A program made the translations under genes and the position numbers. Below the pieces are notes generated by a model that saw only the letters and a list, made by a program, of their open reading frames with translations, did not search any database and was not told the DNA's origin. From contig NC_058510.1 of the NCBI RefSeq assembly GCF_020382885.2, positions 2,616,001 to 2,680,000 of the forward strand: 64,000 bases of DNA, written 5' to 3'. Position 1 is the stretch's first letter; every line of letters starts with the position of its first letter. Source of the DNA: Scatophagus argus. Its lineage: Eukaryota > Chordata > Actinopteri > Scatophagidae. Shown here in pieces: positions 10,601-13,521 of this stretch.

Positions 10601-13521
10601 GGTAGACGACCGGAGCAGGACCTCTGGAGCTCGGTACCTGGACAGAGAACACACTCGGATGAACCAGCCAGCCAACTGTAAGTCTACACACACGGCGAAC
10701 TTTAGTCTCCTGAAGTCGTGCAGCACGCTGGGGTTGATGCACGAGCTTTCTCTCACCATCTGGTTGATACGTAGTCTGTGTAGGGAGGTTTGGAGCGGAT
10801 CTCTCTGGCCAGTCCAAAGTCTGCTATTTTGACCAGTTCTGGACCCATGCACAGCAGGTTCTCTGGCTTCATGTCTCGATGAAAGAAACCTGCAGAAAGG
10901 CTAACATCAGACTGAGCCACTGTGTATAGGGTTAACGCTAATCTACGTTAACGACGACTCTACTCTGTCAAATTACAATCACACGAAACTATTCTGCATT
11001 AGTACAAAGTGCTAAATACAGATGGAAGAAGATAAGGAAAAATTAAGTCACATGTACAGTAACTTGGAGATATTAGAGAAGAGAATGCATCCAAATAAAA
11101 ATGTGCATTCAGCAGTTACAATATTAACATTCTCACTCTTATTTTGAGTAAGTCATTCATGTTATCTATTGACTTTTTACAGCATCCCACACACAAAACA
11201 ACAAGTGGAAAGTCACACTATGTTTGAAGAGGTAAAGAATGATAGAGTGAAGCCTCTTACCATGCTTATGTACAAAAACCAGCCCAGAAAGCACTTGGAA
11301 CATGATGTTCCTAATTTCACTCTCTGAGAACATCTTATTCTCTCTAGCAGCAGAGCAAAGAGGCAGAAAAGGAAGGAAAGCAGCGTGAAAGAGAAAAGAA
11401 AGAAAAGCAGTTAGAAGAAAGAGAAATCCTGTCTGCGCTCTGGATGTGTGGAAGCACCTGCAGCTTCTGTGAGGTGAATGTGTTCGCATTTACACATGCT
11501 CAAGTTTGGATGATTGGGTGTCTTAGCGTTTTCTAAACTGCGTGCGAGGCATCCACACATCCATTACGTGTAGAAATGCAGGGTTAGATGAGGCCGTTAT
11601 GAAAGGTTCACAAACTACAAGATTCTGATCAATTAATTGCCAGTTAGACTTTGGTTGCCATATTCCAGATTTCATGTACAGTTTTCATATTACTTGTATA
11701 ACCCTTCAGTGAATCTTGCAGTATGAAACCACTGTCATGCACTTGCACGGCGTGAGGCCAACACTTCACACCTACCATGTTTGTGAATAAACGACAGGCC
11801 TTGTAAAATCTGAAAGCTTATGTTTCGTATCACTGATTCGGGGAACAATTTTTTTCTGCAAACATAAAATTGATAGAATTGTCGTGAGCCTGAAATACAA
11901 AGCACATATGAAAATACACATTTAGCCACTGAACTGACTAGCTGGAAAACATTGGGAGAAACCAGGTGTGTGCAAGTGCAGTGCACACACACCTGGGGTT
12001 TCCAAATCAACAAAAACATCAGGGCCTCCCCCAGAGAAGATGTTATATAAAAGAGGGAGCCTAATGAAGAGCAAGTGCAAACCTTTGAGAGCACGGAGAC
12101 AGAAATATAATATATTCCACTGGACTCGCATCACAGCGTTTACTGTCTAAACTGGTTTCAGGTTTCTGGTTCAGAGGGGAAGCTCCTGACGAGATCTGGA
12201 AAACTTTGTGTTATCGTAAAGATATCAAACTGGACAAACATTTGCAGTATTCGTCTTCTTACCTGTCCTTCATAAGCTGGTAGAGGTTCTCCTTCATGTA
12301 CTCAAAGACAAAGTAGAGGTGATCGTTCTCTCTGATTACCTCCTTCAGTTTCACCACATTCGCATGGTTCAGCTTCTTCAGAGACTGGAAGAGGTCAGCA
12401 CTCGTTAAACGTGAAACAGAGTTGCTCCACAGCGACATTAAAGGAACAGGTCACACAAAAGCAGAGCATGTACACGTTTGAGCTCAGTGACAGTGAGTAC
12501 ATGATGACTAAACATTCATTTTTGGGTGAGGTGGTAGTAATATCACCGTCCTTACCTTCACCTCTCTCAGGTTCATACATTCCTCCCAGGAATAAAACTT
12601 CCTCTTCATCCTGAGAAAGAAAGTCAAAACCACACATTTAGTTGTAATCCAGCACAGATATGCATCAGCTAAAGAACAGAAGACATCGCATTTTGAGCCA
12701 TGCATACCCCAGTGTACAGCAGAGTCCATCTTTAGAAGATTCCTTTGTGTTTCTCCATCAATAATTCAGCTTTTTTTTCTTGTTTTTTGGCCACATTTCT
12801 AATTTCAGCTCATTTCACCTCAAGAGCAAAAGCAGCAAAAGCTGTAGATTTTAAAGTGATAAAATGCATATTCTAAACTGTATTCTTTTCTTCGGCTTGA
12901 ATCAAGTGTAAAACACGACTTCCCTGAGCTGTCGCACTGAGCTGTCAGTTTTATCGCAGGATGTGTTGCTGTACATTAAAACCACACTGCAGCTGGTTTA
13001 CGGGACACCTTTATGTAGTTTATCTCCTCTGATCAGCGTTACGTCTCCCTCCACCTGTAAGAGTTACAGAACGTGCAGATATCTTGTTCTCCTCTCTGGA
13101 CGCCTGCCAGTTTCGGTCGTCTCCCCTCCGCCATGTCAGCAACCCGACACACTCCTTCTACTTTCACTCCCTTTCACCGTCACTGTGTGTATTGTCTTGC
13201 ATGGTAACCAAATGATCAACTCCAATGGATGCATCTCCCCAGTTTCTCATCTATTATTGAGCCCTGCTGACCAGGCTGCTTGTCTTACAAAGGCGTGTAA
13301 GCTAGTTTGTTTGCCCTGGTGATGGCTGGAAAGCAGCAGCCAGTCGCATTTTCACTGCTCAGAAACCACAGCATTAAAATGACATCAGTATCACAAAGAG
13401 AAACTGATCGACATCCTCACCTCTTGATAGCCACCAGTTCTCCAGACTCGTTGCTTCGCCCCATCAGCACGCTGCCGTAGGTGCCATCACCCAGCTGCCT
13501 CAGGGTGGTGTAGCGATTCAT
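4660..13521 (-). CDS. mak: MAK, male germ cell-associated kinase (ciliary RCK-family Ser/Thr kinase)
   Basis: Coding exons in transcript order: 13521-13421, 12610-12556, 12384-12263, 11855-11776 (5a) or 11343-11261 (5b), 10889-10757, 10637-10466, 10258-10091, 9530-9255, 8985-8774, 8590-8505, 7845-7699, optional 6512-6426, 5807-5688, optional 5448-5353, 4820-4660. Without the optional exons the total is 610 aa (human MAK 623). The kinase domain shows the glycine loop GDGTYGSV (11-18), K33, HRD with D125, DFG at 143-145 and the TDY activation motif at 157-159. All numbers equal those of human MAK when exon 5a is used. The tail has a poly-Q tract, an RRRWGQ motif and a KYGGNR C-terminus, which distinguishes MAK from its paralogue ICK/CILK1. 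MAK limits ciliary length and is needed in photoreceptors and male germ cells; this is family knowledge. The start is the only Met preceding the conserved [12 protein letters not shown]. Confidence 0.93.
5353..5448 (-). CDS. mak: Optional cassette exon of mak (32 codons, Lys-rich)
   Basis: On the minus strand a strong pyrimidine tract and CAG precede 5448, and GTATTG follows 5353. The 96 nt are open in the mak frame, enter and leave in phase 1, and join cleanly to exons 5807-5688 and 4820-4660. The encoded peptide contains the basic run [12 protein letters not shown] followed by a Ser-rich segment. The flanking exons also join in frame without it, so it is a natural cassette. Mammalian MAK is known to have a retina-enriched in-frame exon in its tail; whether this one corresponds is unknown. 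Confidence 0.6.
6426..6512 (-). CDS. mak: Optional cassette exon of mak (29 codons)
   Basis: An open 87-nt stretch on the minus strand lies between a TAG acceptor (before 6512, with a pyrimidine-rich region further upstream) and a GTACTT donor (after 6426). It enters and leaves in phase 1, like its neighbours 7845-7699 and 5807-5688, so inclusion or skipping both keep the frame. The peptide is charged (for example [20 protein letters not shown]). I know no counterpart in the main human isoform. The exon call rests on signals and frame only. Confidence 0.5.
7957..8136. mobile_element. Fold-back MITE-like repeat in a mak intron
   Basis: The left arm at 7989-8030 and the right arm at 8089-8130 are imperfect inverted complements. 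Both contain the GTGTGGCTGC / GCAGCCAC and CCAACCAA / TTGGTTGG blocks. The centre also folds (CAACTG near 8051 with CAGTTG near 8071). The left flank, CAGACCTGGGCAAACTG from about 7959, has no clear partner on the right, so the right terminus looks truncated. I recall this type as a common dispersed fish repeat, but I cannot assign a family name. Confidence 0.7.
9315..9356 (-). repeat. mak: CAG/CAA tract encoding poly-Q in mak
   Basis: Fourteen consecutive codons in the exon 9530-9255 read as thirteen Gln with one His. The tract is mostly CAG with some CAA. It lies in the C-terminal tail after the kinase domain, in a region that is also Gln-rich in human MAK. A pure trinucleotide tract of this kind is expected to vary in length among individuals. 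Confidence 0.9.
11261..11343 (-). CDS. mak: mak exon 5b, diverged tandem copy of the kinase exon
   Basis: The 83-nt open stretch encodes [20 protein letters not shown] and continues LVFVHKHG. It matches 18 of 27 aligned residues of exon 5a and has one extra codon at the front. It has a very long pyrimidine tract and TAG before 11343 and a GTAAGA donor after 11261. It enters in phase 2 and leaves in phase 1, exactly as 5a does. Kinase-critical positions survive: the IRNI helix, the hydrophobic spacing, and the HKHG that leads into FFHRD. It would replace 5a, since using both or neither breaks the frame. It could instead be a decaying duplicate, but intact frame and splice signals argue against this. 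Confidence 0.75.
11776..11855 (-). CDS. mak: mak exon 5a, canonical version of the kinase exon
   Basis: The 80-nt exon encodes [20 protein letters not shown] and continues SFIHKHG, close to the human MAK segment. Use of this copy gives human-identical numbering of D125 and T157/Y159. Its acceptor (TGCAG before 11855) has a weaker pyrimidine tract than that of 5b, and its donor is GTAGGT. It lies 432 nt upstream, in transcript order, of the diverged copy at 11343-11261. Confidence 0.85.

Follow-up and report, generated by a model that had tools for sequence, protein, structure and literature searches.

The stretch analysed here, a 64-kb window of Scatophagus argus contig C18 (NC_058510.1, positions 2616001-2680000), carries on its minus strand a gene that we identify as mak, encoding the protein kinase MAK. 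Two adjacent homologous exons of this gene, 5a and 5b, encode one and the same protein segment and form a tandem duplicated exon pair. Their frames, their splice signals and a second copy of the pair elsewhere in the genome suggest that they are very probably mutually exclusive exons of the kinase domain, with a regulated choice enforced by reading frame and mRNA decay, and that the cell probably makes two versions of the MAK kinase. In the mechanism we propose, each exon would supply helix E of the kinase domain and the loop before it, and a full kinase would need exactly one of the two; both or neither would lead to a frameshift and an early stop, and such mRNAs would be removed by nonsense-mediated decay. 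Exon 5a, with the better core acceptor, would be the default, and the choice would probably be set by proteins binding a long pyrimidine tract before 5b. The two kinases would have their catalytic residues in common, their differences being confined to the surface of helix E and the preceding loop, at the back of the kinase where, going by MAP-kinase structures, docking partners would bind.

Exons 5a and 5b are identical at 18 of 27 aligned residues (19 of 28 with the shared junction codon). Each begins within an arginine codon, after its AG, and ends one base into a glycine codon, and the introns from exon 4 to 5a, from 5a to 5b and from 5b to exon 6 measure 407, 432 and 371 nt. The exon boundaries that a first-pass annotation of this DNA had placed at 12263, 11855-11776, 11343-11261 and 10889 were all verified on the sequence. 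We likewise confirmed its description of one kinase segment encoded twice with one additional codon in 5b, and of two exons with matching phases, each with an acceptor and a donor, 432 nt apart. The two exons have diverged too far in nucleotide sequence to appear in the output of a repeat finder, and a search of the interval from exon 4 to exon 6 for a third exon-5 copy found none in either of the two mak genes described below.

The same annotation held that double inclusion or double skipping would break the frame, and early stops were indeed computed for both cases in both genes. With either exon alone, the frame of the window gene stays open through exon 7, giving a 5a or a 5b isoform. With both exons, a stop appears 18 nt into exon 6, with 112 nt of that exon still to follow; with neither, it appears 51 nt into the 172-nt exon 7. 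In the second gene, on contig C13, using both exons brings a stop within its own 5b (5b′), and using neither brings one 13 nt into exon 6. A stop well upstream of later exon junctions leads to nonsense-mediated decay. Because each stop of the window gene is followed by more than 100 nt of its own exon and by more exons downstream, mRNAs containing both exons or neither should be targets of this pathway.

This second gene was located by a whole-genome search (570 Mb in 48 contigs) with the peptide of 5a through exon 6. Its exon pair agrees with that of the window in order, lengths (80/83 nt), phases and the additional codon of 5b, and lies among introns of 170, 419 and 621 nt. All four exons have GT-AG splice sites, and the donor is specific to the exon type in both genes, gtaggtg following 5a and gtaagag following 5b. 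The open frame holding the window 5b matched the frame holding 5b′ at E = 5.6e-18 and that of the C13 5a (5a′) at E = 2.8e-9, which argues against 5b being a chance frame. Where the first-pass annotation had looked to relatives for stop codons or a loss of conservation, 5b was found intact and conserved in this same-genome paralogue, the only relative compared. When open frames of at least 25 aa from the fetched stretches of the two loci were compared (E ≤ 1e-4), matches were located at exons of mak and tmem14c, either on their coding strand or opposite it, and none fell in the introns flanking the pair. A genome search centred on 5b returned at least 29 matches at E ≤ 0.001; the top two (91% and 78% identity) were the 5b exons of C18 and C13, and the remaining matches listed were exon-4 and 5a-type exons of three genes, or sites 33-55% identical.

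Both exons have been under selection at the protein level in the two genes. Between the 5b exons, 25 of 29 residues are kept, with 17.0 synonymous differences at 16.8 sites and 5.0 nonsynonymous differences at 70.2 sites; between the 5a exons, 24 of 28 residues are kept, with 13.5 synonymous differences at 17.3 sites and 4.5 nonsynonymous at 66.7. The corresponding values are 12.0 at 22.5 and 3.0 at 97.5 for exon 4, and 25.0 at 29.3 and 2.0 at 99.7 for exon 6; synonymous sites are saturated in three of the four exons compared. Exons 5a and 5b are less conserved than their neighbors, at 0.07 nonsynonymous differences per site versus 0.02-0.03 for exons 4 and 6. We also simulated neutral change by placing as many base changes as were observed at random positions (transition weighting 2:1:1), a crude and not phylogenetic procedure; none of 5000 simulations had as few amino-acid changes as observed, for 5b or for 5a. 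As far as one genome shows, 5b thus looks like an old coding exon selected as protein, and 5a looks to be under a similar constraint. Within the C18 gene, 5a and 5b are separated by 16.4 nonsynonymous changes at 67 sites, and within the C13 gene by 18.4. This is far above the divergence between the two 5b exons and indicates that the exon was duplicated before the two mak copies split. A tree of exon-5 segments (seven sequences, 27 residues, two of the sequences human) groups the 5b exons of C18 and C13 with a support of 100. The attachment of this pair among MAK and CILK1 exons was supported at only 34 and 55, so that the exon may have been duplicated either before or after MAK and CILK1 split.

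The splice signals of the two exons differ in a way that is repeated in both genes. Scored with average consensus matrices (acceptors over the last 14 intron nt), the 5a acceptor reached 10.2 bits in both genes, versus 5.8 (C18) and 6.8 (C13) for 5b, and the 5b donors scored 8.7 and 8.6 bits versus 7.8 for 5a. Over the 80 nt before 5b, pyrimidines make up 88% (C18) and 82% (C13) of the sequence, versus 51-69% at the other 9 of the 11 acceptors examined, with 60% before the window 5a. The "far stronger pyrimidine tract" ascribed earlier to 5b is therefore borne out for the distal tract, whereas its core acceptor is the weaker one. The words TCTT, CTCT and TTCT number 17 (C18) and 12 (C13) per 120 nt before 5b versus 0-8 elsewhere, and the zone free of AG extends over 85 nt (C18) and 94 nt (C13), versus 11-59 nt at the other acceptors apart from that of C13 exon 4. 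Candidate branch points, sought as consensus matches within the last 120 intron nt, lie 43 and 68 nt from the 5b acceptor in the window gene (the latter a CTAAC with its A at 11411) and 19 and 60 nt from it in the C13 gene.

Two physical explanations of the exclusion were considered and found no support. Steric exclusion needs a distance of under ~50 nt between donor and branch point (PMC5740500). The AG-free zones begin more than 300 nt past the 5a donor, the 5a-5b introns exceed 400 nt (432 and 419 nt), and the consensus branch points sought in the last 120 intron nt are 19-68 nt away from the acceptor, so that this mechanism is not indicated. Incompatibility between U2 and U12 sites found no support either, the donors gtaggt and gtaaga presumably not fitting the U12 consensus. 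From the sequence layout, exclusion seems best explained by frame, mRNA decay and a regulated choice of acceptor, and our guess for the regulator would be a pyrimidine-tract repressor of the PTBP1 type. Words resembling RBFOX, NOVA, MSI and CELF/MBNL sites were also scanned from exon 4 to exon 6. An RBFOX-like TGCATG stands at window 11736-11741 (-), 34 nt downstream of 5a in the 5a-5b intron; it has no counterpart in the C13 5a-5b intron and was given no weight, the other TGCATG of each mak gene being in exon 6.

Table 1. Coordinates of the exon pair and its surroundings in the two mak genes (window positions unless a contig is named; a slash marks an exon-intron boundary)
Feature	Position	Strand	Description
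Exon 4	12263..12384	-	40 protein letters + 2 nt; upstream exon common to both isoforms; donor AG/gtaaga
Exon 5a	11776..11855	-	80 nt, 28 protein letters; gcag/AAAAA...ACATG/gtaggt; donor gtaggtg, identical 7 nt in C13 copy
5a-5b intron	11344..11775	-	432 nt; C13 counterpart 419 nt
AG-free stretch before 5b	11344..11428	-	85 nt; 88% pyrimidine over 80 nt; 17 TCTT/CTCT/TTCT words per 120 nt
Exon 5b	11261..11343	-	83 nt, 29 protein letters; ctag/AGAGA...GCATG/gtaaga; donor gtaagag, identical 7 nt in C13 copy
Exon 6	10757..10889	-	133 nt; HRDMKPEN catalytic loop; common downstream exon; early stop here if both exons used
Exon 7	10466..10637	-	172 nt; YRAPEV...VLGTVKK; early stop here if neither exon used
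Exon 5a′	C13:4992050-4991971		80 nt, 28 protein letters
Exon 5b′	C13:4991551-4991469		83 nt, 29 protein letters
Exon 6′	C13:4990847-4990715		

Other origins of such a pair can be weighed against these data. One exon, perhaps 5b, could be the normal one in fish and the other a leftover duplicate that is rarely or never spliced, a view favored by human MAK, for which a single 5a-type exon is known, and by a zebrafish cDNA study that mentions no exon-5 choice in the parts consulted (PMC11273301). We regard this as improbable, since both exons are constrained in two genes (24/28 and 25/29 residues), with splice sites intact and synonymous sites saturated or nearly so, and since the frame of an unused exon would be expected to decay; stops arose in 2702 (5a) and 2273 (5b) of the 5000 neutral simulations. 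Alternatively, the second exon might be a poison exon, double use giving a non-coding mRNA and thereby reducing the output of mak, with 5b resembling a coding exon as a mere by-product. The stops brought by double use would suit this role; in the window gene 112 nt of exon 6 follow the stop, and in the C13 gene it falls inside 5b′. A poison exon has no need of amino-acid constraint, however, and yet 5b has it in the very frame that is read when 5a is skipped, a frame that continues through exons 6 and 7, making this account very unlikely. Finally, the conservation of 5b might be the product of recent gene conversion between the two mak genes, both of which lie in one genome, the sole genome compared. 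This idea is contradicted by the 17.0 synonymous differences at 16.8 sites of 5b, and the flanking introns have no open-frame match; since saturation and the lack of a match make a recent exchange unlikely, we attach almost no credence to it.

Several observations nevertheless count against a pair of mutually exclusive mak exons. The zebrafish mak mutation studied previously, a stop at R70, lies in exon 4, which by residue count is the exon 4 described here, and an exon-5 choice is not noted in the consulted parts of that report (PMC11273301). The evidence for conservation is drawn from two genes of one genome, and a scan of IMG/VR returned no relative. A long AG-free zone is not peculiar to 5b, as C13 exon 4 has one of 115 nt, and the kinase domain alone places the C18, C13 and C10 genes weakly.

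By alignment to CDK2 and its structure, the segment encoded by 5a or 5b comprises helix E together with the loop that precedes it. In a sequence search of the PDB, the 5b query aligned with CDK2 without a gap before helix E; judged by length, the pre-helix-E loop of 5a and of human MAK is one residue shorter than that of 5b. The best 60 of 2702 matching PDB sequences were those of CDK1, CDK2, CDK3, CDK11B, CDKL1, CDKL5, a CDK2-like kinase and one mislabelled entry, with no MAK or CILK1 structure among them. The additional residue of 5b falls at the beginning of the segment, ahead of helix E. HRDMKPEN is encoded entirely by exon 6, common to both isoforms. The earlier suggestion that the switch moves the catalytic residues by one position thus holds for their numbering only. 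In MAP-kinase structures the docking groove lies next to helix E and the loop leading into it, and the swap would for that reason be expected to tune partners; we expect it to alter the choice of partner or substrate rather than basic catalysis.

The genome holds two mak-like genes and one cilk1-like gene, at window 4663-13521, C13:4984001-4994000 and C10:12815001-12825000. The exons of the window gene were traced by tblastn with a human MAK sequence, from a first block of 11 protein letters near C18:2629521 to a C-terminal block of 13 letters near C18:2620663, and the same search recovered the MAK C-terminal blocks RRRWGQ and VHGRxDW. On its 3′ side lie a TMEM14 gene (Pfam Tmemb_14, within the window) and then TF_AP-2 exons at C18:2602570-2606895. 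Because these neighbors match the zebrafish chromosome 24 order tfap2a-tmem14ca-mak (PMC11273301), we take the window gene, from its C-terminal blocks and its neighbors, to be mak. Upstream of mak, at 17113-19900 (+), open frames resemble a phospholipase-C X-domain (PLCXD-like) gene; two pieces were scanned and had no Pfam match.

Kinase domains were compared over 263 residues, excluding exon 5, with human MAK and CILK1 as references. The C18 domain is identical to MAK at 238 of 263 residues and to CILK1 at 235, which does not discriminate, and the C13 domain at 221 and 212. C18 shares 235 residues with the C10 gene versus 229 with C13, which is a long branch. At the 36 sites that differ between MAK and CILK1, C18 is MAK-like at 17, CILK1-like at 14 and neither at 5; the MAK-like and CILK1-like counts are 19 and 10 for C13, and 12 and 16 for C10. 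An unrooted tree of these five sequences, two of them human, joins C10 with CILK1 (support 95) and splits C18 and C13 from MAK, CILK1 and C10 (support 73). In the C10 gene, exon 5 is single and of the 5a type (28 protein letters); no 5b match was found in its flanking introns, which are 83 and 99 nt long. A tmem14c-like gene stands in convergent position beside both the C18 and the C13 mak gene; a TMEM14-like neighbor, more diverged, also accompanies the C10 gene, and TF_AP-2 had no match on C13. We read the C10 gene as cilk1 and the C18 and C13 genes as two mak copies, likely derived from the teleost genome duplication. For zebrafish, no CILK1 homologue had been identified in the species database according to PMC11273301, as far as the parts consulted go. 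About 5 kb past the last exon found of the C10 gene, a lone piece resembling cilk1 exon 3 (C10:12814257-12814213 (-), 15 protein letters followed by GT) was seen with no other kinase exon found nearby, and is probably a partial duplicate or a relic.

JNK and MAK, which we take to belong to the same broad kinase group, CMGC, are alike in having alternative exons in a protein kinase, and differ in that the JNK pair 6a/6b lies in the C-lobe after the activation segment, whereas the mak pair forms the pre-helix-E loop and helix E. The JNK (MAPK8/9) exons are listed as changing substrate binding in a passage of PMC8699841. Exons 3 and Ab of vertebrate U2AF1 are likewise duplicated in tandem, and the account consulted in part (PMC5224494) describes double-exon mRNAs as lowered by decay and the exon with the longer pyrimidine tract as the less used one. 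The mak pair resembles them in its tandem arrangement, its decay logic and the longer tract before one exon, here 5b. It differs in gene and domain, and in that the regulators of U2AF1 were shown experimentally, whereas the mak pair is known from sequence layout alone. OGDH exons 4a/4b (PMC7969005) and alpha-tropomyosin (PMC1431707), in the excerpts used, combine distant branch points with a long pyrimidine-rich, AG-poor acceptor region. Such a region before one exon recurs at mak 5b; in contrast, the mak branch-point candidates (43/68 nt in C18, 19/60 nt in C13) do not indicate a distant-branch-point mechanism.

Alternative splicing of MAK itself has been described, in the portions consulted, as a retina-specific exon 12 in humans (PMC9159943) and, for zebrafish cDNA from embryos, as 15 exons with two isoforms, with and without exon 14 (PMC11273301). 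Both concern the same gene, but a single exon is there included or skipped after the kinase-domain exons, whereas 5a and 5b would be swapped inside the kinase domain. No report of a MAK exon-5 pair was found in the open literature (subscription journals, supplements and genome-browser annotations lay outside the search), the peptide strings of 5a and 5b had no match in papers, and MAK is not named in the main-text portions consulted of two surveys that cover tandem or mutually exclusive exons in humans (PMC9741552, PMC5740500). Both exons may already be present, unremarked, in gene models of fish.

The mak pair would add to the known class of tandem duplicated, mutually exclusive exons. As a tentative scenario, in which we have limited confidence, MAK would have gained a switch on the face of helix E, a likely docking surface, before the fish copies split and probably before the teleost genome duplication, with catalysis left intact; its retention in both copies would give four MAK kinases per genome, in contrast to the one fixed version known for human MAK and seen here in the cilk1-like gene. 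Zebrafish mak is a disease model in use. MAK regulates cilium length, and its loss leads to photoreceptor degeneration in humans, mice and zebrafish, with opposite axoneme phenotypes reported for fish and mouse mutants, as stated in the parts consulted (PMC9159943 and PMC11273301 for the degeneration, PMC11273301 for the phenotypes). With a conserved alternative exon in the kinase core, a cDNA cloned singly may stand for just one kinase of the two, and rescue or antisense experiments on mak may reach only one isoform. An isoform switch in fish would also be one possible factor in the opposite axoneme phenotypes of fish and mouse.

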